64,000 bases of DNA from Alphaproteobacteria bacterium. Lineage in GTDB: Bacteria; Pseudomonadota; Gammaproteobacteria; Burkholderiales; Burkholderiaceae_C. Position 1 is the first letter of the stretch. The number at the start of each line of letters is the position of its first letter. Shown in pieces: positions 2,271 through 51,879 of this stretch. The position numbers and the translations under genes are program-made. The stretch covers positions 62,001-126,000 of the forward strand of contig JASGCM010000007.1 of assembly GCA_030054175.1 (NCBI GenBank), read 5' to 3'. The notes below the pieces were generated by a model. It did no database searches, was not told the DNA's origin, and saw only the letters and a list, made by a program, of their open reading frames with translations.

Positions 2271-2289
2271 ATTGGGGTCAGACCCCAAT
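2271..2289. repeat. Palindromic repeat, copy 1
   Basis: A near-full copy of the window-wide palindrome: arms ATTGGGGTC and GACCCCAAT around a central A. It lies 13 bases after the serB stop and is followed by TTCAG, a flank shared with the next copy. Confidence 0.9.
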
Positions 2290-2318
2290 TTCAGCGCTGT
2301 TGCTCAAAACCAACCATC

Positions 2319-2339
2319 AATTGGGGTCAGACCCCAATT
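2319..2339. repeat. Palindromic repeat, copy 2
   Basis: A perfect 10-bp-arm palindrome (AATTGGGGTC, A, GACCCCAATT) in direct orientation to copy 1, 48 bases downstream, and again followed by TTCAG. The two copies fill most of the 140-base gap between serB and the nicotinamidase gene. Confidence 0.92.
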
Positions 2340-2397
2340 TCAGGTCTGGACTTGTCATGTAATATGAAAGAATTCATTTCATATTTGAGAGCCTGAC

Positions 2398-3129
2398 ATG
2401 AACATTGTTTCCAGCAAGAGAGCCGTTTTGCGCGCAACGGGTTTGGGTCTGATCGCGTCGGCCGTACCGCTGGGGTGGAAAGCCTGGGCCAATCAACCCC
2501 TCAGGCCTGGGGTTCAATCGGCCCTGATCGTGGTTGATGTTCAAAACTGTTTCATCGACGGTGGAACACTGCCCGTGGCCAAGGGAGCCGAGGTGGTGCC
2601 CATCATCAATGCCATGGCCCCGAAATTTGCCAATATCGTGGTCACCCAAGACTGGCACACCCCGGCGCACGCCTCATTTGCGAGCAGCCATGCCGGCAAA
2701 AAACCCTTTGAAACTACCAACCTGTCTTACGGTACCCAAGTGCTCTGGCCGGACCATTGCGTACAGGGCAGCGAAGATGCGGCATTGCACAAAGACCTGA
2801 AATTGCCCACCGCGCAAGTCATCTTGCGCAAGGGCCATCACCCACTTGTCGATAGCTATTCGGCCTTCCTTGAGGCCGATCGCAAAACCGTCACTGGTTT
2901 GGGGGGCTACCTCAGGCAACGGGGCATCACCGATGTATTCGTTTGCGGCTTGGCCACCGATTTTTGCGTCGCTTGGACGGCCCTCGATGCACGCGACCTG
3001 GGCTTTGCCACCTATGTCATCGAAGACGCTTGCCGCGCCATCGACCTCAATGGCTCGCTCGATCAGGCGTGGAAGGCCATGCTGGCCAAAGGCGTTCGCC
3101 GCATTCAATCGAAAGAAATTGGGGTCTGA
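2398..3129 (+). CDS. Exported nicotinamidase-like isochorismatase-family hydrolase
   Basis: This resembles PncA, which deamidates nicotinamide to nicotinate. The catalytic Asp is in VVDVQNCF (near residue 48), the Lys in LRKGHHP, and the Cys in GLATDFCVAW (near residue 190). The metal-binding pattern D-W-H-x4-H is present (QDWHTPAHASF). Unlike cytoplasmic PncA it begins with SKRAVLR followed by a hydrophobic stretch and AWA|NQ. This looks like a Tat signal with Lys-Arg in place of Arg-Arg, so a periplasmic location is inferred. The last codons and the TGA stop are supplied by a copy of the palindromic repeat. A pncB gene lies 13 kb away. Confidence 0.85.
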   Translation: MNIVSSKRAVLRATGLGLIASAVPLGWKAWANQPLRPGVQSALIVVDVQNCFIDGGTLPVAKGAEVVPIINAMAPKFANIVVTQDWHTPAHASFASSHAGKKPFETTNLSYGTQVLWPDHCVQGSEDAALHKDLKLPTAQVILRKGHHPLVDSYSAFLEADRKTVTGLGGYLRQRGITDVFVCGLATDFCVAWTALDARDLGFATYVIEDACRAIDLNGSLDQAWKAMLAKGVRRIQSKEIGV

Positions 3130-3155
3130 CCCGAAATTGGGGTCTGACCCCAATT
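3117..3155. repeat. Palindromic repeat, tandem pair (copies 3 and 4)
   Basis: Two head-to-tail copies. The first (from 3117) has an imperfect right arm (GACCCGAAATT) and contains the TGA stop of the upstream gene at 3127-3129. The second, 3135-3155, is a perfect 21-base palindrome with a central T. Confidence 0.92.
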
Positions 3156-3236
3156 AATGCAATTAATGCCGGGTGACACGCGCGGGATTTCGCCAGACTG
3201 AAGTCACGTCGATAATGGGCATCAAGGAGGCTCCCC

Positions 3237-4172
3237 ATGGCATGGTTTGAAGGCTATGATTTGCATACCCGCACCATCGGCACACGCCCAGTGCGTTTTC
3301 GCGTCACCAACCAAGCTGATTGGCAGTCCCAAAACCATTTGCCGGTGCTGGTTCTGCTGCACGGGTTCCCTCAGACCCATGTCCTTTGGCACCGCGTCGC
3401 CAAGCAGCTGCGCGGACATTACCGCATGGTCATGCCCGACCTGAGGGGCTACGGCGGTTCGTCTTGTGAGTTGGGCGAACCCGACCACTCGAACTACAGC
3501 AAGCGCGTCATGGCGCAAGAAATCATCGACCTGCTCGACAGCCTGGGCGTGAATGACTTCTTCCTGTGCGGTCATGATCGCGGGGGCCGGGTCTCACACC
3601 GCTTGGCACTGGAGCACGGCCACAGGGTGCGCAAGATGTGCGTGCTGGACATTGCCCCCACGCTGGACATGTACCAGGGCACGAACTTCGAGTTCGCACA
3701 GGCCTACTACCACTGGTTCCATCTGATCCAACCCGCGCCTGTACCCGAAGTGATGATCGGTGGGAACCCCGAAGGTTATCTGCGCTTGAAGATGAAGGGC
3801 TGGGGCAGCAACGGCGGCTCGTTTTTTGAGCCCGAAGCCATGGATGAGTACGTGCGCTGCTTTTCCGAGCCCACGCTGAATGAGAAAGGTTGGCGTGCCG
3901 CCGTTCATGCCAAAGCCGAAGACTATCGCGCCAGCGCCGGCATCGACCTAGAGCATGACCGCGCCTCACGCGCCAAGGGTGAAAAAATTCCTTGCGACCT
4001 GTTGGTGATGTGCGGCGACCGTGGGGTGGTTCACCGCTTGTTCGATGCCGCTGGCCTGTGGCAGGCACAGTGCCAAGGTCGGGTGAGTTACAGGTCCGTG
4101 CCCTCAGGGCATTACATCCCGGAAGAGCTGCCCGAAGTCACCACCCAGGCTTTGCTGGAGTTCATGCGCTGA
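3237..4172 (+). CDS. Alpha/beta hydrolase, haloacetate (fluoroacetate) dehalogenase type
   Basis: A 311-residue alpha/beta hydrolase closest in motif content to fluoroacetate dehalogenases, which cleave C-halogen bonds of 2-haloacetates through an Asp ester. Visible elements are the oxyanion motif HGFPQTHVLW (near residue 42), the nucleophile region GHDRGGR giving Asp plus two substrate-binding Arg, the halide-site pair His-Trp in YYHWFHL, a Tyr in DEYVRCF, the acid Asp in CVLDIAP and the base His in SGHYIPEE. A strong AGGAGG lies 7 bases before the ATG. The substrate is inferred; epoxide hydrolase is a less likely alternative because of the Arg/His/Trp pattern. Confidence 0.8.
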   Translation: MAWFEGYDLHTRTIGTRPVRFRVTNQADWQSQNHLPVLVLLHGFPQTHVLWHRVAKQLRGHYRMVMPDLRGYGGSSCELGEPDHSNYSKRVMAQEIIDLLDSLGVNDFFLCGHDRGGRVSHRLALEHGHRVRKMCVLDIAPTLDMYQGTNFEFAQAYYHWFHLIQPAPVPEVMIGGNPEGYLRLKMKGWGSNGGSFFEPEAMDEYVRCFSEPTLNEKGWRAAVHAKAEDYRASAGIDLEHDRASRAKGEKIPCDLLVMCGDRGVVHRLFDAAGLWQAQCQGRVSYRSVPSGHYIPEELPEVTTQALLEFMR

Positions 4173-4174
4173 GT

Positions 4175-5140
4175 TCAGCGCGTCATCTCTGCTGAAAAGT
4201 CCATGGCCGGCCGATGTTGCGGACTGCCTTGGTGGTCGATGCGAACCACATGCACCCCCCATTGGCGCACACCACTGCGGTCGACTTGCAAGCGCAGCAT
4301 CCAACCGGTGTTTTCTTCGGTGCGTGTGAAACCATCAAATACAAAATTGCCCAAACTGTAAAAGATCGGCTTGCCCCGATAGGTCTCAATCTCTTGCGTC
4401 ACGTGCGGATGTGTACCAATGACGACATCGGCCCCCGCATCGATCATTCGTCGAGCCAAACGGCGCTGTCGTTCGCTGGCCAAGGGCTCGTACTCGACCC
4501 CCCAATGCATGAACGGAATGACCACATCGGCGCGGTCGTGCGTGCGAGCCAGCCGAATATCCCGCACCACCCGCTCATCATCGCTCCAGGCGACACCTGC
4601 CCGGTCATGGTCGGCCTCAAAGCTGCGTGGAAAAAACTCGTTGTAACCCAATAGGGCGATGCGCACGCCCTTGCGCTCAATGATCAAAGGGCGATGCGCG
4701 CGCGCCAAATCGAGCCCATCCCCAAACCAGGGAAGTCCGGCCTCATGCAACAAACTCAACATCTCGGTCAATGCCACCCTGCCAAAATCGCCGGTGTGGT
4801 TGTTGGCCAGAGAGACAGCATCAAAATGGCGCTTGAGTACCGGCAAGACCCGAGGATGTGCGCGAAAAGTATAAATTTTGTTGGGTACCGCTTGTCCGGA
4901 TCGGGCCACCACGGTCTCAAGATTAGCGATGCGCACATCGGCCTCGCGCAACAAAGGAGCCACATGGCGCAACGGATCGACGCCACGTGCAATCAATTGC
5001 CCTGGCGTTTCAGCCAGCATCAAATCACCAACAAAGATCATCGAAACCGTCGTCGCGGGAGACTGGGCACATGCACTCCAAACCCATGCGCTGAAGACCC
5101 AAGCCCAGCACACGCGCCCCAGAGCCATGCACAAGTTCAT
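4175..5140 (-). CDS. CapA-family (poly-gamma-glutamate synthesis type) metallophosphatase-like protein
   Basis: A CapA/PgsA-type protein of about 321 residues. From the chosen ATG at 5140 it starts with a hydrophobic export signal ending near ACAQS, then shows the family motifs FVGDLML, NLETVV, SLANNHTGDFG, the metal-site HWGVEYE and GTHPHVTQE, and the C-terminal YSLGNFVFD. In Bacillus the family belongs to poly-gamma-glutamate export, but most proteobacterial members have no assigned role and no pgsB/pgsC is near. The start overlaps the stop of the upstream secreted-protein gene by 4 bp, and it converges on the dehalogenase stop with a 2-base gap. Confidence 0.85.
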   Translation of the reverse strand: MNLCMALGRVCWAWVFSAWVWSACAQSPATTVSMIFVGDLMLAETPGQLIARGVDPLRHVAPLLREADVRIANLETVVARSGQAVPNKIYTFRAHPRVLPVLKRHFDAVSLANNHTGDFGRVALTEMLSLLHEAGLPWFGDGLDLARAHRPLIIERKGVRIALLGYNEFFPRSFEADHDRAGVAWSDDERVVRDIRLARTHDRADVVIPFMHWGVEYEPLASERQRRLARRMIDAGADVVIGTHPHVTQEIETYRGKPIFYSLGNFVFDGFTRTEENTGWMLRLQVDRSGVRQWGVHVVRIDHQGSPQHRPAMDFSAEMTR

Positions 5141-5547
5141 GGAGTGGCCCGAGACAATTGGCACTGGTAACGCAAGGCGCGCCCCAAATCGGGCGAGTAC
5201 AACCACTGCTCGGGGCCCAATGTGCCATTGGCTGCACGAGCAGCCGCCAGGATATCTGGGCCGTAGGTGCTGTGTTGCATCGTGATGTACTGACTGCCAT
5301 CCCAATACTGAACATCAATCACCAGGGTGTCGGCCCGAGCATGGACGCTGGCCCAAGACACTTTCAGACGAAATCGCTGACCGACCTCGCGGGTCGCTGC
5401 AGCGTAAGGTTCATCAGGATCGGGGACGAACACATGGCGCCAGCCAAAAATGGCCTACTCGGTCTCACATTCCACCGATTGAGCGCTGGCCCCGACCCAA
5501 GGCCCAACCATGGCCGACAGACAGAGGGCAACAGCGCGCAGTCTCAC
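5137..5547 (-). pseudogene. Small secreted protein interrupted by an in-frame TAG codon
   Basis: A GTG at 5547 opens a frame with an export signal (RLRAVALCLSAMV...GASAQ) that meets TAG at 5457-5455 after 30 codons. It then continues in the same frame through GWRHVFVPDPDEPY to a stop at 5137. Both junctions are preserved: the GTG overlaps the dsrE-like stop (GTGA) and the stop overlaps the capA start (ATGA). This strongly suggests one 136-codon gene with a nonsense change, sequencing error or readthrough. The family is not recognised. A GTG at 5433 could start the distal 98 codons alone, but that product would lack the signal. Confidence 0.7.
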
Positions 5548-5990
5548 GGCTTGATGTATGCGTATCGCTGCCGGAATTGCAATTCCCCGATCCGCGCCAC
5601 TCCCGAGGGGGTGAAATCGGCATCAAAGGTGAACTGCTCTTTTTTCAGGTTGCGGTTACGCAATGTGATCTCGCAGACCTCGAACTTGACCCCGCGCGCC
5701 TTCAGCGCCGAAACCAAAGGGGCATACTCGATGTTGGAGTTCTTGGCGTCGTGCGCGCCTTCCATGAGGAAGTCAACGCCATTGGCATGCGTCACCACGG
5801 TGATTTGGGTGTCGGGCAAAACATCGAGGTGATTGCGGATGTTGCGCAAACCCTTGGTGGCCTGTGCCGCCGCGTCGTCGATGTGGTAGACGACATTGTC
5901 GCCTGCGTGGGCACTGACAGAGGCCAGTGCGCAGGAGAGAATCAGGGACAAGCCCAACAGAATGGAACGGATCTGACGGAAAGGTTTCAT
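5544..5990 (-). CDS. Exported DsrE/DsrF-like protein
   Basis: A 148-residue protein with a clear Sec signal (positive start, then ILLGLSLILSCALAS, cleavage near AHA|GD). The mature part has the DsrE/F-like alpha/beta pattern: VVYHIDDAAAQATKGLRNIRNHLDV, ITVVTHANGVDFLM, LKARGVKFEVCEITL. The single mature Cys sits where many DsrE-like proteins carry one. Sulfur-relay function is known for cytoplasmic DsrE, not for these periplasmic relatives, so the role is unknown. It is the first gene of a tightly coupled three-gene operon with a small secreted protein and CapA. Confidence 0.8.
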   Translation of the reverse strand: MKPFRQIRSILLGLSLILSCALASVSAHAGDNVVYHIDDAAAQATKGLRNIRNHLDVLPDTQITVVTHANGVDFLMEGAHDAKNSNIEYAPLVSALKARGVKFEVCEITLRNRNLKKEQFTFDADFTPSGVARIGELQFRQRYAYIKP

Positions 5991-6077
5991 GGTGTGTCTC
6001 GCAGGTGGTGGCTTGTGGGCTATGCTAAACCATCTTGCGCTACCATGCGCCGAAACAGCCCCGCAGGAGACCCCGAC

Positions 6078-7133
6078 ATGAACGCACCCCGCTACACCCC
6101 GCAGTCACTGATCGATTTCGCGACCCGGACCCTGCAAGCTGTCGGTATGGAGCCCGCAAAAGCCGATTGTGTGGCGCTCACCCTGGTCGAGGGTGATTTG
6201 CTGGGCCACGACACCCACGGCCTGAACCTGTTGGCCCCCTACGTCAAAGAAGTGCAAAACGGCACCATGTCGCGCACGGACGAGCCGCTGGTGCTGCGCG
6301 ACAAACCTGCCGCACTGTGGTGGGACGGCCAGCGACTGCCCGGCCCCTGGCTGGTGCGTCGGGCCATGGACACCCTGATGCCGCGCGCTCGCGATTTGGG
6401 CTGTGCTTCTTTGGTGATCAAACGCAGCCACCACATTGCCTGTCTGGCGGTGTATTTGCGATGGGCTTTGGAGCAAGGCTTTTTGATGCTGCTGGCCTCG
6501 TCAGACAACAACTCGGCCAGCGTGGCCCCCTATGGTGGCACCGAAGCCGTGTTCACACCCAACCCTTTGGCGCTGGGCTACCCGCTGTCCGATGGCGGCG
6601 TGATGGTGGACATTTCGGCTTCGATCACCACCAACAACATGCTCAACCGCAAACGCGCTGCCGGCCTGCGCTATGACCACGATGTGTTGATGGACGCCCA
6701 AGGCAAGCCCACCAATGACCCCAAAGTGTTGTCGGAACAACCTCCCGGAACGCTCTTGCCCGTAGGGGGCTTGACGCACGGTCACAAGGGTTATGGTTTG
6801 GCCCTGCTGGTCGAATCTCTGACCGCCGGTCTGTCCGGGCGCGGTCGAGCCGACCCCAAGGAAGGCTGGGGCGCAACGGTACACATCACCCTGTATGACA
6901 TCGATTCTTTTTGCGGCCAGCCCGAGTTTCTGCGCCAAATGGATCGCGTCGCGCAGATGTGCCGAGGCAACCGCCCGTTGGATCCCAAGCAACCGGTGCG
7001 AATGCCGGGCGACAAGGGTTACAAGCAAATGCACGAACAATCGGCACTGGGCGTGATCCTGCACCCCAGCATTTGGCCGCAACTGCTGCCGCTGTCGCAG
7101 GCTTTGGGGGTGGCGCTACCAGAGGCGGTTTGA
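6078..7133 (+). CDS. Ldh2-family malate/L-lactate/ureidoglycolate-type dehydrogenase
   Basis: A 351-residue NAD(P)-dependent 2-hydroxyacid oxidoreductase of the Ldh2 (MdhII/YlbC/ComC) fold, unrelated to Rossmann-fold lactate dehydrogenases. Hallmarks are the GHDTHGL loop near residue 42, the NAD-contact stretch SSDNNSASVAPYGG, NPLALGYP and the C-terminal GHKGYGLALLVE. The frame stays open far upstream, but the ATG at 6078 is preceded by CAGGAGACCCC and fits the family N-terminus. The substrate cannot be told from sequence alone; malate, lactate, ureidoglycolate and sulfolactate members exist. It is transcribed divergently from the dsrE-like operon. Confidence 0.87.
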   Translation: MNAPRYTPQSLIDFATRTLQAVGMEPAKADCVALTLVEGDLLGHDTHGLNLLAPYVKEVQNGTMSRTDEPLVLRDKPAALWWDGQRLPGPWLVRRAMDTLMPRARDLGCASLVIKRSHHIACLAVYLRWALEQGFLMLLASSDNNSASVAPYGGTEAVFTPNPLALGYPLSDGGVMVDISASITTNNMLNRKRAAGLRYDHDVLMDAQGKPTNDPKVLSEQPPGTLLPVGGLTHGHKGYGLALLVESLTAGLSGRGRADPKEGWGATVHITLYDIDSFCGQPEFLRQMDRVAQMCRGNRPLDPKQPVRMPGDKGYKQMHEQSALGVILHPSIWPQLLPLSQALGVALPEAV

Positions 7134-7322
7134 TCTGCAACCCCATGTCCTGGGGAATCATTTCGTCAAGGCAGTGCGGCCTTGCTTGCTGCTTGCAAGC
7201 TGCGCCCATAATCCGGCGCCATCCAAAGCGGATTTCGCAGCAGAGATCCGTCGATCGCGACATCCGCCCAGAATCGCAAGCTGAATGAGTTCAGAAACTG
7301 CCCGCTGCGGGCTGCAATGATT

Positions 7323-9179
7323 TCAGCGCAAGGCCATGTATATGTTCTGAGCCAATTCGGGCGAAATGCCTTCGACGCTGCTCAAGTCTTGCACACTGGC
7401 CTCAGCCACACCGCGCGCACCACCAAAACGCTGCAACAGACGAGCACGTTTTTTCGGACCGATGCCCGCAATTTCTTCCAACTTGCTGCCCCCCACCCGA
7501 ACTTTGGCGCGTTGCGCTCGCATGCCAGTGATCGCGAAGCGGTGGGCCTCGTCGCGGATTTGTGCGACCAGCATCAGCGCCGCCGAATCCTTGCCCAAAT
7601 AGACCTTGTCGCGGCCATCGGCAAAGACCAGTTCTTCAAGCCCGACCCGACGACCCTCGCCCTTTTCCACACCGACGATGCGCGAGATGTCCAGAACCAG
7701 CGCTTCAAACACTTCGCGCGCCATCGACACCTGCCCCTTGCCACCGTCGATCAACACCAAGTCGGGCATGCGCCCTTGGCCATTGCGCTCGGCCTCGGCC
7801 AACTTGCTGTAGCGTCGCGTCAGCACCTGGCGCATGGCGGCATAGTCGTCGCCGCCGGTAATGCCCTCGATGTTGAAACGCCGGTATTCGGACGACTGCA
7901 TTTTGTGGTGATGGAACACCACGCAAGACGCCTGAGTCGATTCCCCGGCGGTGTGTGAGATGTCAAAACACTCGACGCGAAACTGATCGAGGTCTTCCGG
8001 GGCCAAGTCCAGCGCTTCCACCAGGGCACGGGTGCGCGCCTGTTGCGAGCCCTCCTCGGCCAACAAACGGGTGAGCTGAATTTGGGCGTTTTGCTGCGCC
8101 ATGTCCAACCAATCGCGCCGCTGGCCGCGAGGCTGGTGTACCAAGCTGGCCTTGACGCCGGTTTGCTCGGCCAAGGCCAAGCCCAGCTCGGGATCGATCT
8201 TGTGACTCAACACCAAGGCCGCCGGCATCGGGGTGTCGATGTAATGCTGACCGACGAAAGCCTCGAGGATTTCGCTGGGCTCGGCCTGCTCGACGTGCAG
8301 CGGGAAGTAAGGGCGATCCCCCAGATGGCGCCCGCCGCGCACCATGGCCAAATTCACGCAAGCCTTGCCGCCTTGCACATGCACAGCCAAGATGTCCACA
8401 TCCTGATCCCCCACCGTGTCGACCGACTGTTGGTGCAAAACTTTGCTCAAGGCCGCCATCTGGTTGCGCACCTCGGCAGCCTGCTCGAACTCCAGCCGAT
8501 CGGCATGCTGCATCATGCGTGACTCCAGGTCATGCAGCACCTCGCGCGTCTCACCGCGTAAAAATCTCGCCGCGCTGCTCACCGTGGCTTGGTAATCTTC
8601 GGGGCCAATGTGGCCCACGCATGGGGCCGAACAACGCTTGATCTGGTACAGCAGACAGGGTCGGGTGCGGTGTTTGTAGACGCTGTCTTCACAAGTGCGC
8701 AGGCGAAATACCTTTTGCATCAGCCAAATGGTCTCGCGCACTGCCCACACCGAAGGATACGGCCCAAAGTAGTCGTGTTTCTTGTCGACCGCACCACGGT
8801 AGTACACCATGCGCGGGCTGTCGGCCCGGGTCAGCTTCAAATAAGGGTAGCTTTTGTCGTCGCGAAACAAAATGTTATAGCGCGGTTTGAGCGTCTTGAT
8901 CAGGTTGTTTTCAAGCAGCAAGGCCTCGGCCTCGGAGCGCACCACCGTGGTTTCCATGCGAGCGATCTTGCCCACCATGTGTCCAATGCGCGTGCCATCG
9001 TTGCCCTTGCGAAAGTAGGACGACACCCGCTTCTTCAAATGGATGGCCTTGCCCACGTACAAGACCTGACCGGCAGCATCGAAAAAGCGGTAAACCCCAG
9101 GCAATCCGGGCAAGGAAGCGACCTGGGCCAGCAATTCGGGCGGGAATTCGTGCCGATGTTCAGAGGGCTCGATGGACAT
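7323..9179 (-). CDS. uvrC: Excinuclease ABC subunit C (UvrC)
   Basis: The dual-incision nuclease of nucleotide excision repair, 618 residues from the chosen ATG. It has an N-terminal GIY-YIG domain ([12 protein letters not shown]...VLYVGKA), a UVR motif around residue 215, the RNase H-like C-terminal nuclease ([24 protein letters not shown]) and a tandem helix-hairpin-helix end ([21 protein letters not shown]). The start at 9179 lies inside the region where the divergent earP begins, so the two genes share a promoter zone of essentially no intergenic length. With mfd it gives two repair genes in the first 9 kb. Confidence 0.95.
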
Positions 9180-9198
9180 GCCCGCTATTATGCGAGGC

Positions 9199-10266
9199 AT
9201 GTGGGATGTTTTTTGCCGCGTCATCGACAACCATGGCGACCTGGGGGTATGCGTTCGCCTGGCTCGCCAATTGGCCGACCGGGGCGAACTGGTGCGATTG
9301 TGGGTGGACGAAGCCAGCGCCCTGACCTGGATGGCCCCGGATCTGGCCCAGTGCCGCTTGCACGGGGTGCAGTGGCACCCTTGGGGTCAGGCCAGCGAAC
9401 CCGGCGTGCTGGCTGGTCTGGCGCCTTCAGAGGTCTGGATCGAGGCCTTTGGCTGTGAGTTGCCCGAAGCCTTTGTCGCCCATGGCGTGGCCCAAGCCCA
9501 GTCACTCGGGCGCCCCCAACCCGCCTGGATCAACCTGGAGTACCTCAGCGCTGAGGCCTTTGTCGAGCGCGCGCACGGGCTCCCCTCGCCGGTGCAAAGT
9601 GGACCGGCACGAGGCTGGGTCAAGCGTTTTTTTTACCCAGGCTTCACCCGACAAGCCGGTGGCCTTTTGCGTGAGGTCGATTTGCAGGACCAGCAGCGTC
9701 ATTTTGACCGGATCGCCTGGCGCTCCAATCATGCGCATCCGGGCGCGCAGCGACTCATCAGCCTGTTTTGCTACGAACCGCCCGGTTTGGGCGATGTGTG
9801 GCGGCAACTCGGTCCCAATGACCACCTTTTGGTCACCCCCGGTCGGGCCTGGGCCGCCCTCCAAGCGCTGCGCCAGGTCGGCGGAGCCCAACCCAGCTGG
9901 CAGGTCCTGCCCGCCACCGACCAAGCCGGCTTCGACCGCATGCTGTGGGCTTGCGATCTGAATTTTGTGCGGGGTGAAGATTCTCTGGTTCGCGCCCTGT
10001 GGTCGGGGCTGCCGCTGGTCTGGCACATCTACCCCCAAGAAGACGCCGCCCACCATGACAAATTAGAGGCTTTTTTGGCATGGCTGGACGCCCCGAGCAG
10101 CCTGCGCCGTGCGCACCGGGTCTGGAACGGCATCGAGGCCGGCCCCATGCCGAGCCTCGGTGGGCCAATGCTGGCCGAATGGGCCGCTTGCATCGATGCA
10201 GCACGCCGCCGTTTGTGGGCCCAAGACGATCTGTTGACCCAACTGATGACCATGGCGGGGCGCTAG
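9199..10266 (+). CDS. earP: EF-P arginine rhamnosyltransferase EarP
   Basis: EarP uses dTDP-L-rhamnose to rhamnosylate Arg32 of elongation factor P, relieving ribosome stalling at polyprolines. The protein opens with the family signature [17 protein letters not shown] and ends with the nucleotide-sugar site [16 protein letters not shown](L)PLVWHIYPQ...H, about 355 residues in all. The start is uncertain: ATG 9199 fits the family best, while ATG 9172 has a better Shine-Dalgarno (AGAGGG) but overlaps the divergent uvrC start. It ends in TAG. The target, efp with Arg32, follows 74 bases downstream. Confidence 0.93.
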
Positions 10267-10340
10267 AAGACTGACTCTCCCGATCGGCTCAAAAAAACGA
10301 TAAAATACAAGGTTTTGCACATACCAGACTTGATTCAACT

Positions 10341-10895: not shown

Positions 10896-10903
10896 TCTGA
10901 CTT

Positions 10904-10920
10904 GGGGATATTTCCCCTTT
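10904..10920 (+). terminator. Weak hairpin after efp
   Basis: A 5-bp stem (GGGGA / TCCCC) with a 4-base loop followed by TTT, 8 bases after the efp stop. It is short for a Rho-independent terminator and may only attenuate transcription. Confidence 0.35.
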
Positions 10921-10948
10921 GCCTTCGTGCTTGCACTAACATAGCGAC

Positions 10949-11812: not shown

Positions 11813-11813
11813 T

Positions 11814-15111: not shown

Positions 15112-15142
15112 AGATATTCCTGAACTGATGAGGTTTTGAGGT

Positions 15143-19772: not shown

Positions 19773-19883
19773 AGAAATTGGGGCGGAAATTGGGGTCAGA
19801 CCCCAATTATTTAATGTGACTGTGAAGTTAAGGAAACGTGAAGAAATAATTGGGGTCTGACCCCAATTTCCGCCCCAATTTCT
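19773..19883. repeat. Inverted pair of palindromic repeats (perfect 40-bp arms, copies 5 and 6)
   Basis: Two repeat units in opposite orientation, 19773-19812 and 19844-19883, are perfect reverse complements over 40 bases and separated by 31 bases. Each arm holds a half-unit (AAATTGGGGCGG) and a full palindrome (19788-19808 and 19848-19868). The whole can fold into a long cruciform or hairpin. It lies between the phasin terminator and the histone deacetylase-like gene. Confidence 0.93.
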
Positions 19884-32216: not shown

Positions 32217-32247
32217 GGAGTTCTCCTCAACGAAATTGGGTTCACGA

Positions 32248-32268
32248 AATTGGGGTCAGACCCCAATT
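32248..32268. repeat. Palindromic repeat, copy 7 (with a preceding half-unit)
   Basis: A perfect palindrome with a central A, directly after the pmdD stop codon (32271) and inside the pmd operon, preceded by a partial unit (GAAATTGGG at 32232-32240). In the transcript it would form a hairpin between pmdD and pmdA. Confidence 0.92.
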
Positions 32269-33994: not shown

Positions 33995-34045
33995 AATTGG
34001 GGTCTGACCCCAATTGTTGTGACCCCAATTGTTGTGACCCCAATT
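33995..34045. repeat. Palindromic repeat, copy 8, plus two tandem half-units
   Basis: A full palindrome (33995-34015, central T) is followed by two exact 15-base tandem copies of GTTGTGACCCCAATT (34016-34030, 34031-34045). The block fills the pmdE-pmdF gap inside the operon. Confidence 0.93.
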
Positions 34046-42153: not shown

Positions 42154-42166
42154 AAGGAGCACACCC

Positions 42167-43315: not shown

Positions 43316-43328
43316 GCACCGAAGGGAT

Positions 43329-44072: not shown

Positions 44073-44198
44073 CGCAAAAAATCAAATGCGCTGTCGATGC
44101 TGACCTCAATAGGGTCAACACCAAGCCCATCATAATGAATATTTAGGTATTCAAAAAGACCCCGTCCGATGCACCGGGTGAGCAAGCCGTGTACATGC

Positions 44199-45794
44199 TC
44201 AAGCCCCCGAGCCACTCGCCATATCTCGAACCATGGTCTTGCCCAATTCCACGCCCCACTGGTCATAGGGGTTGATGCCCCACAAGGCAGCCTGGCAAAA
44301 CACCTTGTGCTCATAGAGGGCGATCAATGTCCCCAGGCTCTGCGGCGAGAGCCGATCCATCCACACGATTGAGTTGGGGCTGTTGCCCACATAGGTGCGG
44401 TGTGGGCACAAGCGCCGCGCTTCTTCTTCGCTCATTCCTTCGGCTTGCAAAGCCACCAAGGTACGCTCCGCGTCCCGCCCCAAGGCCAAGGCCTGGGCTT
44501 GGGCCAGCAAGTTGCCAAGAACGACCTCTTGATGTGACTGGGCCAAGGGCAACGAACTGTCGGTTTGCAACACCCCAATGAAATCCACCGGCACGGTGTG
44601 CGTGCCCTGATGGAGCAACTGGAAGTAAGCATGCTGGCCGTCGCTACCCAGGCCACCCCAGACTACCGGGGCGGTAGACACCGCCACAGGGCTGCCATCG
44701 ATGTGGGTGCGCTTGCCGTTGGATTCCATCTCAAGCTGTTGGATGAACGCAGGAAACAGGGACAGGCCATAAGCATAAGGCGCCAAGTTCAAGGTATGGG
44801 CTTGCAGAAAATGTTGATTCCACGCACCCAACAAGGCCATCGTCAGAGGTAAATTATGTTGTGCATCAGCCGACAAAAAATGCTCATCCATGGCCCTCGC
44901 ACCTTGTAAAAATGCTTTAAAGGCCGAAGATCCAATGGCCATGGCCAAGGGCAATCCAATGGCCGACCAGACCGAATACCGGCCACCGACCCAATCCCAA
45001 AATGAAAACGTCTGCTCAGGCATGAAGCCCTGTTGCCGCGCCAGATCTGTCTTGGCGGTCACGGCCACCCAATGGGGGGCCTGACGCTCAACCGGACAGC
45101 CTGCGTCTTGCAACCAGCGCCGTGCCGATGCCGCCAGGGTCAGTGTCTCTTGGGTGGTGAAGGTCTTGCTCTGGACGATAAAGCCAGTGCGTGCCGGCTG
45201 CAATCCAGCCAACACCGATTGCAGCGCCAACGGATCGGGGTTGGACACAAAGTGAACCCGCAAGGAACTGCTGGCAGCGCCGCCATCGCGAACAGCCAAG
45301 GCCTGACATGCCATGCGCGGCCCCAGGTCCGACCCACCGATCCCGATGTTCACGACATCGGTGATGATCTGACCATCGAGACCCCGCCAATGGCCATTGC
45401 GAGCGCGTTCGGCAAAGGATAAAAAGCGATCCAGCTCAAGCTCAACCAGCCCAGACACCTTGTCTCCCCAGGGTGGGTTCTTCACAAACGAACCACGCAA
45501 GGCGACATGCAAAGCAGCTCTGCCCTCGGTGACATTGACGAGTTCACCAGCGAATAAATCACGCGCACGGGTCATCACTTGCATTTGCTCGGCCCATTGG
45601 TGCAGGGCGTGTAAGACGGACTGATCGACGCGTTGGCGGCTGGCATCCAGTTGCAAGCCTGCAGCCTGCAAGTTCAGGGACTGGGTTCGCGCCGAGTCAG
45701 CCAACAAATGAGACAAAGACAAAGGGTGTTGGCTCGCCAAACGGCCAAGGGTCTGCCAAGCAGGGGTGAGTTCGGGGCGGGTGAAGGTCGTCAT
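44199..45794 (-). CDS. pgi: Glucose-6-phosphate isomerase
   Basis: Interconverts glucose-6-phosphate and fructose-6-phosphate. The 531-residue protein has the sugar-phosphate signatures VVNIGIGGSDLGPRMACQAL near residue 148, GGRYSVWSAIGLPLA near residue 265 and QQLEMESNGKR near residue 350, and the C-terminal Lys region. It is 15 bases from the eda start side, so pgi and eda (both on the minus strand) could be one operon with eda first. Confidence 0.96.
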   Translation of the reverse strand: MTTFTRPELTPAWQTLGRLASQHPLSLSHLLADSARTQSLNLQAAGLQLDASRQRVDQSVLHALHQWAEQMQVMTRARDLFAGELVNVTEGRAALHVALRGSFVKNPPWGDKVSGLVELELDRFLSFAERARNGHWRGLDGQIITDVVNIGIGGSDLGPRMACQALAVRDGGAASSSLRVHFVSNPDPLALQSVLAGLQPARTGFIVQSKTFTTQETLTLAASARRWLQDAGCPVERQAPHWVAVTAKTDLARQQGFMPEQTFSFWDWVGGRYSVWSAIGLPLAMAIGSSAFKAFLQGARAMDEHFLSADAQHNLPLTMALLGAWNQHFLQAHTLNLAPYAYGLSLFPAFIQQLEMESNGKRTHIDGSPVAVSTAPVVWGGLGSDGQHAYFQLLHQGTHTVPVDFIGVLQTDSSLPLAQSHQEVVLGNLLAQAQALALGRDAERTLVALQAEGMSEEEARRLCPHRTYVGNSPNSIVWMDRLSPQSLGTLIALYEHKVFCQAALWGINPYDQWGVELGKTMVRDMASGSGA

Positions 45795-45809
45795 GGCGTG
45801 GTGATGGCC

Positions 45810-46484
45810 TTAAGGGTTAACCGATTGTGCAACGGCGCAAGCTTCGCAAGCCAGGCGTGTGATGGCGAGCCAGTCGGCAGCCTCCAATAGTGACAAGGGA
45901 GCGAGCCATGAGCCCCCTACCATGGCCACATTGGGTTGACTCAAAAACTCAGCCAGATTCGCGGCTGAAACCCCGCCAGTCGGACACAGCATGATATCGG
46001 CCAACGGCCCAGCCATGGCCTTGACCATCGACAGCCCCCCCGCCTGGGCAGCAGGGAACAGCTTGACGGTCCGGTAGCCCCAGTCGCGCGCCCGCATCGC
46101 CTCGGAAGGCGTCATGACGCCGGGCATGAAGGGCATGCCCTGATCTTGCGCCGCCTGATGCAACTCTGGCGTCAGTCCGGGAGAAAGGGCGAAAGTCGCT
46201 CCCGCCTCACGCACCTGGCGCATTTCAGTTGCCTGGGTCACCGTACCTGCGCCCACATGCATGGCGGGTACTTCACGCGCCACCGCTTCGATGCCGTGCA
46301 AACCTGCGGCATGACGCAAGGTAATTTCCATCACATCAATGCCACCCGCCAGCAAAGCGTGGGCCAACGGAACGGCCTGGTTGGGGTGGGTGATGACGAT
46401 CACCGGAATCACCCGGGATTGAAAAGCCAAGCTGCTCGCAGCGCCTGATGGTTTATTCATGAATGGCGTTGAGGGTCTGGGCAT
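45810..46484 (-). CDS. eda: KDPG/KHG aldolase (Entner-Doudoroff)
   Basis: A class I aldolase cleaving 2-keto-3-deoxy-6-phosphogluconate to pyruvate and glyceraldehyde-3-phosphate. The catalytic Glu is in VMEITLRHAAG, the Schiff-base Lys in RTVKLFPAAQAGG and the phosphate-binding loop in CPTGGVSAAN. 224 residues from ATG 46484, which has AAGGGGG seven bases upstream; the ATG at 46460 lacks such a site. The edd gene is not in the window. Confidence 0.93.
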   Translation of the reverse strand: MPRPSTPFMNKPSGAASSLAFQSRVIPVIVITHPNQAVPLAHALLAGGIDVMEITLRHAAGLHGIEAVAREVPAMHVGAGTVTQATEMRQVREAGATFALSPGLTPELHQAAQDQGMPFMPGVMTPSEAMRARDWGYRTVKLFPAAQAGGLSMVKAMAGPLADIMLCPTGGVSAANLAEFLSQPNVAMVGGSWLAPLSLLEAADWLAITRLACEACAVAQSVNP

Positions 46485-46545
46485 TTGGATACCCCCTTAG
46501 GTTCCGAATACAGACCACACTCTAACCTGACTGGACTGTAATCTG

Positions 46546-46566
46546 CCACTGGGGTTTAGCCAGTGG
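46546..46566. promoter_or_regulatory. Inverted repeat in the eda-yaeQ divergent gap
   Basis: CCACTGG, seven bases, CCAGTGG: perfect 7-bp arms midway between the divergent eda and yaeQ starts. It is a candidate repressor site (for sugar-acid control of eda) or an RNA hairpin in the yaeQ leader. Confidence 0.4.
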
Positions 46567-46608
46567 ACTACACTGCAATGCTACGACCTCGACTTTGACC
46601 CCTTACCC

Positions 46609-47169
46609 ATGGCCCTCAAATCCACCATTTACAAAGCCAATCTCTCGGTGGCAGACATCGATCATGGTTACTATGCCGACCACGCCCTGACTCTGGCTCG
46701 ACACCCCAACGAGACCGATGAGCGCATGATGGTGCGTATCCTGGCCTTGGCCCTCAATGCGCATGAATTGACCGACATCTGCCAGGGGGATGGCACCTTG
46801 GCCTTTGGCGCCGGTTTATCCGACCCCGATGACCCCGACCTGTCATTGAAAGACTTCACCGGGGCGATACGGCTTTGGGCCGAGGTGGGCCAACCGGAAG
46901 AAAAGCCCTTGCTCAAAGCCTGTCAAAAGGCCGACGTGGTGAGGCTTTATGCCTTTCACCATGCTGCCGAAGTGTGGTGGCGCACCATGCAGAGCAAGGT
47001 ACAGCGACTGGACAAATTACAGATTTGGCGCGTGCCTTCAGAAAGCGCTCAAGCCATGTCTCGCATGGCCGAGCGCAGCATGCAACTACAGGCCACAGTG
47101 CAAGACGGCGCCGTCTCATTCTCGGGCGCCAAAGACGGACTCCACATCGAGCTGGAACGCTGGAAATAA
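46609..47169 (+). CDS. yaeQ: YaeQ family protein
   Basis: A 186-residue YaeQ homologue of PD-(D/E)XK-like fold. The family profile is visible: ALKSTIYKANLSVADIDHGYY at the start, HPNETDERMMVRILALALNA, GDGTLAFGAGLSDPDDPDL, IRLWAEVGQPEEK and the C-terminal Trp-Arg-rich segment. E. coli YaeQ suppresses loss of RfaH in overexpression; the biochemical function is unknown. Confidence 0.9.
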   Translation: MALKSTIYKANLSVADIDHGYYADHALTLARHPNETDERMMVRILALALNAHELTDICQGDGTLAFGAGLSDPDDPDLSLKDFTGAIRLWAEVGQPEEKPLLKACQKADVVRLYAFHHAAEVWWRTMQSKVQRLDKLQIWRVPSESAQAMSRMAERSMQLQATVQDGAVSFSGAKDGLHIELERWK

Positions 47170-47182
47170 AGCCCTTTGCAGA

Positions 47183-47224
47183 AATTGGAAATTGGGGTCA
47201 TGAAATTGGGGTCTGACCCCAATT
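47183..47224. repeat. Palindromic repeat, copy 9, with two preceding partial units
   Basis: Partial units AAATTGG and AAATTGGGGTCATG run into a perfect palindrome with a central T at 47204-47224. It fills the gap between the yaeQ stop and the decayed Bug gene. Confidence 0.92.
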
Positions 47225-47229
47225 TCTAC

Positions 47230-48165
47230 TTATTCGATGCGAGCCCCTGAGGACTTCACGATTTGGGCGGCATTATCCCAATCGGCACGCAAGATGCGTT
47301 GAAAATCATCTGAGCTGATCAGGCTGATTTACACACCCAGGCGGGCGAAGCGTTCGGCCACTGCCGGGTCGCCCAGGGCCTTGGCCACTGCCGCGTTGAT
47401 CTTGTCGATCTCGACCTTGGGGGTGCCCGCCGGTGCCAACAGGCCAAACCATGAGTCAAAGCGATAGCCCGGAAAACCTGACTCGGCCACAGTGGGCAAT
47501 TCCGGCATGAATTTCGAACGTTGTTGCCCGGTATAGGCCAACAGTTTGATGCGCGGGTCGTTGCGGAAACCAGCCAGACCGATGGTGGCCGAAGTCACCG
47601 CCTGGGTGCGTCCGGCCAGCACCTCATTGACTGCGTCACCGGTAGACTTCAGCGGAATGTGCTGCATCTGCAAGCCCGCCCGGGCTGCGAACGAGGCTGA
47701 ACCCAGGTGGGTGGCACTGCCGTTGCCAGCCGATGAGTAGTTGTAGGCTCCTGGCTTGGCTTTGATGACTCGAACAAAATCCGCCAGGTTTTGCACGCCC
47801 AGGTTGGCAGGTGCAGCAATCACATATCCGGTGAACCCGACCAATGACACACCGACAAAGTCTTTCAAAGGGTCATAAGGCAATTTGGCGTACAAATGAC
47901 CGGACAGATGGTGGCTGGCCGCAGCCACGAACAAGGTGTTGCCGTCCGGCGTGGACTTGGCCACCTGGGCGGTGCCGACGGTGCCACCGGCGCCGGGTTT
48001 GTTTTCAATGACCACATTGGCGCCCAGTGTCTGCCCCAATTCGGCACTGAAGGTACGGGTGATGGTATCTTGAACCGCGCCGGAACCGTAGGGCACCACC
48101 AGATGGATGGTGCGGGTCTGGGCCCAAGCCGCAGATGACAAAGACAGCGCCAAGGTGGTGCCAAG
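47230..48165 (-). pseudogene. Tripartite tricarboxylate transporter receptor (Bug), decayed
   Basis: A periplasmic solute-binding protein of the Bug family: TIHLVVPYGSGAVQDTITRTF, VIENKPGAGGTVGTAQVAKSTPDG and the SYKST-type PYDPLKDFVGVSL region are clear. Two defects are seen. The signal peptide is fused in frame to the end of an amidohydrolase (junction near 48165: HNTS then LGTTLALSLSSAAWAQ). A TAA at 47331-47329 also interrupts the C-terminus, after which the expected tail (SSDDFQRILRADWDNAAQIVKSSG) continues in frame to a stop at 47230. It is probably non-functional unless rescued. Confidence 0.8.
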
Positions 48166-49215
48166 CGAGGTGTTGTGAATGATGCAGGGACCTGGCCCAT
48201 GATCGGGCATGCGGTGATCTCCGTCCCCATTGCCGATGAAGGCATAGCAACCAGGCCTGACTCGCAGCATGTGGGCAAAGTCTTCGGCGGCAAAACGGGC
48301 TTCGGTGGCGTGGTTCACCACCGGCGGAGAGGCACGGCGGAACTCGATATCGGCCCGGCAACCATAAGACTCGGCTGTGTGCTGGGCCTGACGTCGCAAG
48401 GCAGCCTCCAGATCATCCAAGGCCCTGTCGCTGAAGGTCCGCAAAGTGCCTCCTACCCAAGCCAGATCAGGGATCACGTTCGGGGCGACCGAACCTTGTA
48501 TTTGCGTCACGGCCAACAAAGCCCGCTCGCGAGAGTCGACCACTCGGGCCACCAGCGTTTACAATTGTTGCCCCAGGCTGATCACGGCAGCAATGGGGTC
48601 GATGCCGGTATGGGGCACCGAAGCGTGGGTTCCTTTGCCGTGGATGGTCACGCGCCTGGTGTTGCTGGAAGCCATGAAAGGCCCTGGATTGACGGCGAAA
48701 CCCCCGGTGCGCCCAATCGGGTAGTTGTGCAAGGCAAACACAGCATCACAGGGGAAACGCTCGAAGAGTCCCTCTTGCGCCATTTTCAAGGAACCGCTTT
48801 GCCCATTTCTTCAGCCGGTTGAAAAATAAAATTCACCGTGCCGGAGAAATCGCGGTGTTGTGACAAGTGCCAAGCCGCTGCCAACAACATGGTGGTGTGA
48901 CCGTCGTGGCCGCAGGCGTGCATGCGTCCATCGTGCAGAGACCGATGCGGGAAGTGATTTTCCCTCCTGCAAAGGCAAAGCGTCCATGTCGGCGCGCAAT
49001 CCAATGCTGCGCGTACCTGGCTTGCGGCCTTTCAACACCCCCACCACGCCGGTGCCTGCGATGCCTGTGTGTACCTCCAGGCCCCACTCGCAGAGCAAGT
49101 TGGATACCAAAGCCGAAGTGCGGTGCTCCTCAAAGCCCAACTCGGGATGGGCATGAATATCACGCCGCAAAGCGACGAAACGATCGATGTTTTGGAATGC
49201 GTCAAGTATGGCCAT
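48166..49215 (-). pseudogene. M20-family amidohydrolase (hippurate hydrolase type), frameshifted
   Basis: All pieces of an M20D amidohydrolase are present but in different frames: [35 protein letters not shown], then after a shift near 48960 (an AAAA run) [22 protein letters not shown] and FQPAEE. After a second shift near 48790 come EGLFERFPCDAVFALHNYP and GKGTHASVPHTGIDP. After an in-frame TAA (48561-48559) come VTQIQGSVAPNVIPD and GNGDGDHR. The last ~25 residues are replaced by the Bug signal peptide. Metal-binding His/Asp/Glu residues are recognisable but no intact product is possible. Confidence 0.85.
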
Positions 49216-49252
49216 AACGTGATTTTGGCATGACGTCATCAGCACCGAAAGA

Positions 49253-49317
49253 AATTGGGGTCAGACCCCAATTATTCTGACCCCAATTTTCTGACCCCAA
49301 TTTCCTCACCCCAATTT
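49253..49317. repeat. Palindromic repeat, copy 10, with a ladder of three half-units
   Basis: A perfect palindrome with a central A (49253-49273) is followed by three diverging half-units: ATTCTGACCCCAATT, TTCTGACCCCAATT and CCTCACCCCAATT. The last one lies inside the 3' end of the VOC gene and supplies its final codons and stop. Confidence 0.92.
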
Positions 49318-49788
49318 CTCCAGTTTCTGAAAGGCCGATACGACCTCGGGAGGGGCTTGGACCAATTCGATCAGAACGCCCTCGCCGGCAATGGGGAATT
49401 CATCGTTGGCCTTGGGGTGCAAGAAGCAGATGTCAAACCCTGCAGCGCCACGGCGGATGCCGCCGGGTGCGAAACGAACGCCTTGGGACGTCAGCCATTC
49501 GACGGCAGCGGGCAGGTGATCGATCCACAAACCGATGTGGTTGAGCGGGGTGGCATGAACTGCCGGTTTTTTCTCAGGGTCGAGCGGCTGCATCAAATCC
49601 ACTTCCACCTTGAAAGGACCACTTCCTATGGCACAGATGTCTTCATCCACGTTTTCCCGCTCGCTGCGAAAGGTGCCGGTGACTTCCAAGCCCAACATGT
49701 CCACCCACAGCTTTTGCAGGCGTAATTTATCGGGTCCGCCGATGGCGATTTGCTGGACACCCAGCACTTTGAATGGGCGATGGCTCAT
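49306..49788 (-). CDS. VOC-superfamily protein, candidate methylmalonyl-CoA epimerase
   Basis: A 160-residue vicinal-oxygen-chelate protein with two beta-alpha-beta-beta-beta modules. It is the last gene of the pcc-meaB-mcm operon, where a methylmalonyl-CoA epimerase is expected. Ligand positions: the usual first His (DHIAI) is Gln here (QQIAIG), the second module has His (LNHIGLWID), and the last Glu is present (GVLIELVQ). The replaced His makes the assignment tentative; lactoylglutathione lyase or another VOC role is possible. The stop and last residues (EKLG) derive from a repeat half-unit. Confidence 0.6.
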
Positions 49789-49804
49789 GTCTGTTTCCTT
49801 GCGA

Positions 49805-49825
49805 AATTGGGGTCTGACCCCAATT
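49805..49825. repeat. Palindromic repeat, copy 11
   Basis: A perfect palindrome with a central T whose last base is shared with the TAA stop codon of pccA (49825-49827). It occupies the pccA to VOC gap within the operon. Confidence 0.93.
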
Positions 49826-51879
49826 TATTCAAACTCCACGATGACCTGATCGACTGCCAGCGATTCACCTTTGCTGGCAACCACTTTCCTGACAACGGCA
49901 TCTTGGGTGGCCAGCAACACGTTTTCCATCTTCATGGCTTCGATCACGGCCACGCGCTCGCCGGCCTGGACCCTCTGGCCGGGTTGCACGGCGACATCGA
50001 CCAACAGACCAGGCATGGGCGATAGCACGAAGCGCGACAAATCGGGCGGGGCTTTGAACGGCATGAGGCGATGCAACTCGGCCATGCGAGGAGAGACCAC
50101 CAGGGCATCCATGCGCTTGCCGTTGTGCTGCACTTGCAGAGCCAAGGAATTCTTGCCGGTGCCACGCTCGACCTGAGCCGTGAAAGGCTGGCCATTGACG
50201 GTGCCGATGATGGTGATGTCGTTCAATCGCGAGATGCTGTGGATGGCGTAGTTCTTGTCCTCGACGCGAATCACCGCCACGCCGTGCTGACCGGAAAAAT
50301 CATCGACATGGACAGGCACATGGCGGTTCTCGCCTTTCTTGCCCCATTCGATCACGGTGTAGTCTTGGCCAACTTTGACATCGTAACCAGGCAATTGACC
50401 GCTCAGGCTGGCGGCCCGCTCACGCGATTTTCGGCGCACGAAAGCAGCCAGGGCAAACAGGAAGTTGGGGTCACTGTGCGGCACGTCTTCAGCGAAGAAG
50501 CCTTGTCCATAGTGCTCTGCGATGAACCCCGTGTTGAAATCTCCGCTGACGAATTCGGGATGCGCCAACAGGGCCGCTTGGAAGGGGATGTTCGAGCTGA
50601 TGCCACGGATGACAAAGCCATTGAGGGCTTCGCGCATTTTGGCGATGGCTTCATTGCGATCGCGACCGTGCACGATGAGCTTGGCGATCATCGAGTCATA
50701 GAACATTGGAATCTCGCCACCTTCTTGCACACCGGTGTCGACCCGCACCCCCAAAAGCGAAGACGTATCCCCTTGTTTCATGGTGGTTGGTGGCGTTTGA
50801 AAGCGAACCAAACGTCCGGTGGAAGGCAAGAAATTGCGGAACGGATCTTCGGCGTTGATTCGGCATTCGATGGCCCAGCCATCGCGCTTGACATCGGCCT
50901 GGGTGAAAGAGAGTGTTTCACCGGCAGCGACGCGAATCATCTGCTCGACCAGATCCAGACCAGTGATGCATTCGGTGACCGGGTGCTCGACCTGCAAACG
51001 GGTGTTCATTTCCAGAAAATAAAAGTCCTGGTTCTTGCCCACGACGAATTCAACAGTACCCGCGCTTTGATACTGAACCGCCTTGGCCAATGCCACGGCC
51101 TGCTCACCCATGGCCTTGCGAGTCTCTTCTGAGATGAAAGGCGAAGGGGCCTCTTCGATCACTTTCTGGTGACGTCGCTGAATCGAGCACTCGCGCTCGT
51201 TGAGGTAGACCACGTTGCCGTGGCTGTCGCCCAGCACTTGGATTTCGATGTGGCGCGGCTCGACGACGAATTTTTCGATGAACACGCGGTCATCGCCAAA
51301 ACTATTTCGAGCCTCATTGCGACAGGAACTGAAGCCCTCGAAAGCCTCTTTGTCGTTGTAGGCCACGCGCAAGCCCTTGCCGCCACCTCCGGCAGAGGCC
51401 TTGATCATCACCGGGTAGCCGATGCCTTTGGCAATCTCGACCGCCTGCTCAGGGGTGTCGATGGCGTCGTTGTATCCCGGAATGGTGCTGACCTTGGCCT
51501 CGTTGGCCAGTTTCTTGGACGCGATTTTGTCGCCCATGGCAGCAATCGAGTGGGCCTTGGGACCGATGAATACAATCCCCTCTTTCTCGCAACGGGCGGC
51601 GAACTCCTCGTTCTCAGACAGAAACCCATAGCCGGGGTGGATGGCTTGGGCACCGGTTTGTTTGGCGGCAGCGATGATCTTGTCGGCCACCAGATACGAC
51701 TCGCGACTCGCAGCGGGCCCCAGCAGCACAGCCTCGTCGGCCATTTGCACATGGCGGGCTTCCTTGTCGGCCTCGGAATAGACGGCGACAGTGGCGATGC
51801 CCATCTTGCGGGCGGTGGCGATGACTCGGCAAGCGATCTCACCTCGATTTGCGATCAGAATTTTCTTGAACATGGTCAT
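49825..51879 (-). CDS. pccA: Propionyl-CoA carboxylase alpha subunit (biotin carboxylase/BCCP)
   Basis: Carboxylates biotin for conversion of propionyl-CoA to methylmalonyl-CoA. The 684-residue protein has an N-terminal biotin carboxylase domain (FKKILIANRGEIACRV, ATP-grasp loop KASAGGGGKGLRV, EMNTRLQVEHPVTE) and a C-terminal biotinyl domain with the carrier Lys in EAMKMEN. The ATG at 51879 is chosen for AGGAG six bases upstream. Context with pccB and mcm favours propionyl-CoA over acetyl- or methylcrotonyl-CoA as substrate. Confidence 0.93.
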   Translation of the reverse strand: MTMFKKILIANRGEIACRVIATARKMGIATVAVYSEADKEARHVQMADEAVLLGPAASRESYLVADKIIAAAKQTGAQAIHPGYGFLSENEEFAARCEKEGIVFIGPKAHSIAAMGDKIASKKLANEAKVSTIPGYNDAIDTPEQAVEIAKGIGYPVMIKASAGGGGKGLRVAYNDKEAFEGFSSCRNEARNSFGDDRVFIEKFVVEPRHIEIQVLGDSHGNVVYLNERECSIQRRHQKVIEEAPSPFISEETRKAMGEQAVALAKAVQYQSAGTVEFVVGKNQDFYFLEMNTRLQVEHPVTECITGLDLVEQMIRVAAGETLSFTQADVKRDGWAIECRINAEDPFRNFLPSTGRLVRFQTPPTTMKQGDTSSLLGVRVDTGVQEGGEIPMFYDSMIAKLIVHGRDRNEAIAKMREALNGFVIRGISSNIPFQAALLAHPEFVSGDFNTGFIAEHYGQGFFAEDVPHSDPNFLFALAAFVRRKSRERAASLSGQLPGYDVKVGQDYTVIEWGKKGENRHVPVHVDDFSGQHGVAVIRVEDKNYAIHSISRLNDITIIGTVNGQPFTAQVERGTGKNSLALQVQHNGKRMDALVVSPRMAELHRLMPFKAPPDLSRFVLSPMPGLLVDVAVQPGQRVQAGERVAVIEAMKMENVLLATQDAVVRKVVASKGESLAVDQVIVEFE

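Follow-up and report, generated by a model that had tools for sequence, protein, structure and literature searches.

The stretch analysed here, a window of 64,000 nucleotides (positions 62,001 to 126,000 of contig JASGCM010000007.1, assembly GCA_030054175.1), carries a dispersed palindrome with the core GGGGTC-W-GACCCC. These repeats are very probably non-autonomous elements of the repetitive extragenic palindromic (REP) type, more exactly of the terminal inverted repeat (TIR) kind, spread in trans by a single chromosomal HUH/Y1 transposase of the TIRYT (TIR-associated tyrosine transposase) group. At the level of sequence, the genome under study (G000; 3.10 Mb, 39 contigs) has an amplified and nearly all intergenic repeat family, a transposase gene flanked by the same palindrome, and an orthologous junction that is empty in relatives; in some other genomes, dispersed repeats match the ends of a transposase gene. 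Comparison of these sequences suggests that the repeats have moved.

In the window, GGGGTCWGACCCC occurs exactly ten times (at 2274, 2323, 3139, 19792, 19852, 32252, 33999, 47208, 49257 and 49809), with a copy at one mismatch at 3121 and a match at two mismatches at 61693. These 12 core matches at up to two mismatches compare with a shuffle mean of 2.38 (standard deviation 1.43), and 12 was reached in 0 of 100 shuffles. An earlier note on this DNA had proposed such a family and listed its full copies. The family stands far above the shuffles and the listed positions are real, though shifted by 3-4 bases because the AATT arm was counted; however, the copy listed at 3117 (core at 3121) is imperfect, with GACCCGAAAT as its right side, and the copy listed at 2271 (core at 2274) has CATT, not AATT, as its left arm. 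Genome-wide, there are 88 exact sites compared to 0 for a reversed-pattern control. The copies are far above chance and lie on many contigs, so neither a random copy number nor confinement to this segment, the two grounds the earlier note gave for abandoning its idea, describes the family.

One caveat concerns contig C34 (295,652 bases), on which 24 sites form mirror pairs, the start of one and the end of its partner adding up to 295653. Loci L016 and L017, both with the Y1 gene, are identical across 3327 bases, and we infer that the contig arose by fold-back during assembly, so that its genes appear twice in G000. Because the contig mirrors itself, 12 of the 88 copies (its second half) were left out and 76 were counted; the second copy at L135 was likewise left out as a mirror duplicate. 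The centre of the mirror contig adjoins a palindrome (L016, L017, L135).

Alignment of the 76 copies shows a common 21-base palindrome, AATTGGGGTCAGACCCCAATT, beyond which conservation drops; the inner 13 bases are invariant by selection of the copies. Half-units lengthen the palindrome, AATTGGGGTC on the left and GACCCCAATT on the right, as ladders spaced 13-15 bp apart in 27 of 30 left-left and 32 of 35 right-right steps. There are also 14 lone half-units, every one with a mismatch, and an exception to this grammar at L110:3414, where two exact right half-units are chained without a palindrome; both were left out of the grammar rows. Among 16 neighbour pairs less than 100 bp apart, the centre base is A then T in 10, T then A in 1 and the same in 5 (10 vs 1: p 0.012), and the A-T pairs are predicted to fold as long DNA hairpins, as in the example at 19785-19870. 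The features of the window are as follows, with no strand assigned:

2270..2290: palindrome copy with left arm CATT, 16 bp past a HAD-hydrolase-like gene
2319..2339: palindrome copy forming an A-A pair (equal centre base) with its neighbour copy, spacing 49 bp
3117..3137: imperfect copy whose 13-base core has one mismatch; it runs over the 3' end of an isochorismatase-domain gene, the stop codon of which lies inside the repeat
3135..3155: palindrome copy after the imperfect copy 3117..3137
19785..19870: inverted A-T pair (19788-19808 and 19848-19868), predicted as a single long DNA hairpin (-28.7 kcal/mol, z -9.8)
32234..32268: half-unit with one mismatch (32234-32243) and palindrome copy (32248-32268)
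33995..34045: palindrome copy (33995-34015) and two right half-units GACCCCAATT at 34021 and 34036
47190..47224: left half-unit (47190-47199) and palindrome copy (47204-47224)
49253..49316: palindrome copy (49253-49273) and right half-units at 49279, 49293 and 49307, the last with one mismatch
49805..49825: palindrome copy directly downstream of a biotin carboxylase gene, with no counterpart at the junction in any of the 29 aligned relatives

The copy at 49809 is flanked by a Glyoxalase_4 gene and a propionyl-CoA-carboxylase-type biotin carboxylase gene, and those at 32252 and 33999 adjoin amidohydrolase and RraA-like genes. All three do lie within gene clusters, as the earlier note held; the cluster names pmd and pcc are that reader's own.

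By a custom gene caller, 69 of the 76 copies are intergenic, four are at gene 3' ends, one is at a 5' end and two are internal, while the intergenic share of the sampled DNA is 8.4% of 285,905 bases; the binomial value for this excess is extreme yet only indicative, as the sample is centred on copies and the copies are clustered. The intergenic copies lie between co-directional (31), convergent (20) or divergent (13) genes or at contig edges (5), and for 42 of the 69 a stop codon is at most 40 bp away. Position after many stop codons, strong hairpins, and convergent gaps that hold 20 of 64 classed copies but 12.5% of intergenic bases (with the window alone as background) are what would be expected if the repeats, whatever their origin, were retained mainly as terminators or mRNA 3'-end hairpins. 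However, a T-rich tract follows only 6 of 152 flanks, copies also lie between divergent genes and within operons, and the copy at the pcc junction is missing in relatives. Between 32000 and 50000, one of five copies (47204-47224) is terminator-like, and terminator-like sites as a whole are at shuffle level (19 vs 19.6). Classical termination is not the rule for these copies, and retention mainly for this role is very unlikely. The convergent excess and the proximity to stop codons fit tolerated insertion as well as they fit a mild 3'-end role; if the copies do act on neighbouring genes as RNA hairpins, that action would be secondary.

A short exact palindrome with a conserved core, found between divergent genes in 13 of 76 cases, could also be the operator of a transcription regulator, its copies marking a regulon. 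This is hard to reconcile with the 20 of 76 copies between convergent genes, with the closeness to stop codons, with counts that range from 88 to 0 within one genus and with a family that flanks a Y1 gene, and we regard it as highly improbable. Copy position, missing T tracts and presence or absence among genomes are the grounds on which terminator and operator were set aside as main explanations. A promoter scan listed 2 sites, fewer than the average of 5.2 in shuffles.

The earlier note had likened the palindromes to REP elements mobilised by RAYT (REP-associated tyrosine transposase) enzymes while stating that the window holds no such gene. The latter is correct: the window has no Y1 gene, and a search of the genome itself matched contig C34 alone. 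There, L016:1462-2172 encodes a Y1 transposase of 236 amino acids upstream of glutamate synthase, with the 13-base palindrome on both sides, its copies starting 28 bp ahead of the ATG and 31 bp past the stop codon. This is the one real Y1 locus in G000, the second being its mirror on C34. Both flanking copies are A-centred and so, by centre base as written, are not an inverted pair. The enzyme matches PF01797 at 44 bits (cut-off 23) and the NCBIfam model for REP-associated tyrosine transposase at 76 bits, slightly below the cut-off of 80, and carries the motifs NHFH, WE, Y-I-D-L-N-P and WSS. Its predicted fold is nearest to E. coli TnpA-REP among Foldseek matches; a sequence search of solved structures also gave E. 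coli TnpA-REP (4er8) as best, at E 0.037, too weak on its own. Pfam at E<=10 found only Y1_Tnp on this protein, and the predicted model shows helices up to residue 212.

The likeness to REP/RAYT systems was thus right in kind, a Y1 gene being framed by the palindrome, but enzyme and repeat fit TIRYT rather than classical GTAG REP. In the part of PMC3733652 drawn on here, Y1 genes flanked by GGGGWSAS repeats are described as TIR/TIRYT, some of these repeats forming repeated families. In the corresponding part of a 2018 survey (PMC6006769), most TIRYTs belong to subclass 2.1 (RAYT group 1), with a median length of 238 amino acids and the motifs NH[YF]H, W[EQ], YIELNP or Y[IV]HLNP, and SS; the subclass is prevalent in beta- among other proteobacteria and is the largest class-2 subclass in the survey's table. 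Enzyme and repeat in G000 appear to fit this group: GGGGTCAG lies on both sides of the Y1 gene and matches the GGGGWSAS consensus, the length of 236 amino acids is close to the median, NHFH, WE, Y---NP and WSS agree with one differing residue (D) in the Y motif, the host is beta-proteobacterial and the repeats occur in dimers and clusters. This assignment is by motifs, length and repeat.

There are also differences from the subclass as portrayed in those parts of the two papers. The G000 repeats are perfect palindromes in 76 copies, with 13-15 bp half-unit ladders and A-T pairs. In the survey, subclass 2.1 genes had no REP-like sequences in their vicinity, whereas dispersed REP-like repeats are present here. 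It also describes helix-turn-helix or DnaA-like C-terminal tails in subclass 2.1, without a DnaA-box-like target, but Pfam found no such tail on the G000 enzyme. The GTAG-tagged REPs and REPINs (paired REPs) of E. coli and Stenotrophomonas maltophilia share with G000 dispersed intergenic hairpins and a single Y1 gene framed by them; however, the 76 aligned copies have no conserved unpaired GTAG (GT[AG]G) foot 5' of the hairpin arm and instead have a conserved GGGGTC within the stem, and the motifs tabulated for the group 2 and 3 enzymes of GTAG REPs differ from those of the G000 enzyme. Unlike IS200/IS605 elements, the enzyme has Y---NP (YIDLNP) rather than Y---Q, and its single locus, near gltB-like starts in many relatives, has not been amplified while the repeats have. 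The repeat type is therefore known but little studied, and G000 is a clean and abundant example of it; what is new for a TIRYT-type family is that the palindromes are perfect and come with half-unit ladders and inverted pairs. Four 13-mers of the repeat had no occurrence in an open-licence literature library, and no title listed there names the repeat.

A trace of movement comes from the pcc junction (49805-49825), which was used because the relatives' matches at 2274-3139 cover only the left or middle of the query and give no clean empty site. The junction set was the best 30 loci including G000, from 57 of 61 genomes matched. Neither GGGGTC nor GACCCC is present at the biotin carboxylase junction in 29 of 29 aligned relatives; 28 of them have a junction stretch 19-43 bases shorter than that of G000, and in the poorly aligned G048 it is longer. 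Because the repeat is missing from all 29, this alignment points to the copy at 49805-49825 being a lineage-specific insertion.

Across named GTDB genomes, the transposase had 282 protein relatives, of which the best 80, mostly Limnohabitans or Comamonadaceae, were compared; judged by these nearest relatives, the host of G000 is probably a Limnohabitans-like member of the Comamonadaceae. GGGGTC[AT]GA lies within 90 bases upstream of the gene in 66 of the 80, TC[AT]GACCCC lies downstream in 79 and both are present in 65, the commonest forms being GGGGTCAGATCCC (48) and GGGATCTGACCCC (56). A perfect palindrome is near the Y1 gene in only 3 of the 80, and the ends in relatives are mostly imperfect palindromes whereas those of G000 are perfect. 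Among the downstream stretches listed, many lead into a gltB-like start. The perfect form occurs 0-12 times in each of 72 other genomes of the same genus (at least five times in four of them), where the reversed control gave single matches in four; the imperfect form is absent from G000 and reaches at most 18 in the genus. On a quick enzyme tree of 99 rows, with 44 of 96 inner branches open and near copies inflating the clustering, the repeat variant needs 16 changes compared to 34.2 in shuffles, with 0 of 200 as low. L021 was left out of the protein alignment for its one in-frame stop.

These data suggest a mechanism in which the repeat, once single-stranded (probably at the replication fork), forms a hairpin. 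The transposase would recognise GGGGTC(A), nick beside it with its tyrosine and join the strand elsewhere; in this way isolated hairpins would accumulate along with inverted pairs and ladders of half-units. Recognition, nicking and transfer at the fork are modelled on TnpA-REP and IS200/IS605, within the published accounts drawn on. Copies would persist mainly between genes because harm is least there. The imperfect form of relatives (GGGGTCAGATCCC) may have become perfect in the G000 lineage, with the perfect form then amplified; correction of the quasi-palindrome by template switching is one plausible route.

The core is amplified in several families of the order. Among 300 genomes drawn evenly across the order, one of them G000, exact copies are present in 40, and the control gave 0-1 matches in the highest-count genomes. 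The top counts are in G362 (329), G343 (104), G000 (88), G084 (75), G224 (33), G322 (28) and G094 (19). Y1 genes are present in 12 of 13 searched copy-bearing genomes, and the motif adjoins 9 of 23 Y1 loci, in six genomes (G322, G224, G343, G247, G124 and G209). For the matching of dispersed repeats with Y1 flanks, rows G084a, G094b, G011 and G019 were not used. Within genomes, TGTGGATA continues the core in G343 at 3 of 3 dispersed places fetched and at the Y1 flanks. In G084, abutting palindromes are found at 3 of 3 places and on both sides of the second Y1 gene, the first Y1 gene being without them. The outer arm AGTAGA is found in G094 at the third Y1 gene and at 3 of 4 places, with a differing inner arm, and G074 has a Y1 gene with AAAT/ATTT arms and six dispersed places with variable arms. 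The abutting palindromes of G084 are perfect and recur every 13 bases, which is another way of arraying this core (L177, L244-L246).

The Y1 protein of G209 has DRFH for NHFH and YIEQEP for Y..LNP in an open frame (L203:1462-2148). With its HUH and Y motifs changed in this way, the enzyme is expected to be inactive. Only two exact copies remain in G209, perfect palindromes that frame the damaged gene. In the same genus, G247 carries 18 copies and G124 16, and the motifs of their Y1 proteins are intact. It should be noted that this contrast is one case based on exact copies only, and that other Y1-bearing genomes are also without copies (G003).

Several observations do not sit easily with spread by one TIRYT enzyme. 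Many genomes of the same genus have the Y1 gene and no or few copies, G003 having 0 of both forms. Perfect copies number 5 in G070 and 10 in G021, the latter with a further 17 imperfect ones, yet in both the transposase flanks are imperfect. In G339, G344, G284, G132, G314 and G131, 2-10 copies occur together with Y1 genes, none of which is flanked by the motif. In G362, with its 329 copies, there is no Y1 match even at E<=10; the gene may have been lost after amplification or may lie outside the assembled sequence (99% complete), or a different enzyme may be responsible. Finally, the relatives are 70-77% identical at the pcc junction, too distant to fix the ends of the insertion or its target. 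The 329 copies of G362 lie in 1.5 Mb and are often paired 17 bp apart (L240-L243).

Short, exact, genome-wide sequences that often form inverted pairs also recall DNA-uptake or other cell-wide signals. Such signals are usually common to related species and far more numerous, whereas there are at most 12 exact copies in each of the 72 same-genus genomes, and few copies lie in genes; this explanation has next to no probability. The family has a wider interest, as repeats of subclass 2.1 are hardly described so far and the term TIRYT occurs in 2 papers of the open-licence literature library. What ties dispersed repeats to an enzyme of this subclass here is the flanks, a partial match within genomes, the concordance with the enzyme tree, the empty junction and a single naturally damaged enzyme. 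The family also offers substrates, such as single-stranded GGGGTCAGACCCC and GGGGTCAGATCCC, with which binding and cleavage could be assayed directly, and an assay for cleavage and rejoining of a single-stranded repeat is described in the part of PMC8266576 drawn on. Both the half-unit ladders and the palindrome's change from imperfect to perfect are relevant to the origin and diversification of REPs.

In genus g127 (G343 and G456), the repeat leads into TGTGGATAA; its complement, TTATCCACA, is a DnaA box that matches the consensus TT[AT]TNCACA given in the survey (PMC6006769). TCWGACCCCTGTGGATAA occurs 62 times in G343, 64 times in G456 and once in G383, but in none of the other 95 of 98 family genomes, with controls at 0. 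The box is at both inner sides of the G343 and G456 Y1 genes, one of the four being TTATCCACG (L199, L237-L239, L277). Pfam found no DnaA-like tail on these two enzymes; here the box is in the target, unlike the survey's portrayal of subclass 2.1, where the tail is DnaA-like and the target is without a box. Among the titles and abstract openings listed from the open-licence literature, no work joins a DnaA box to RAYT-type repeats. A broader and rather unlikely proposal is that TIRYT repeats form a second REP-like world apart from GTAG REPs, whose elements are able to acquire host replication signals; those of g127 might then tie transposition, or expression of the transposase, to the initiator DnaA, or might serve as a dispersed DnaA sink.

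Two minor features of the G000 copies were also seen. Where copies lie at gene ends, the final codons and the stop of the host gene come from the repeat, the tail LGSDPN being one example (L134:1734-2603; window 3117-3133). Copies or pairs lie within about 60 bases of contig ends at C12:23, C19:6-47 and C39:25550-25593 (L109, L116, L141), as if hairpins had interrupted the assembly.

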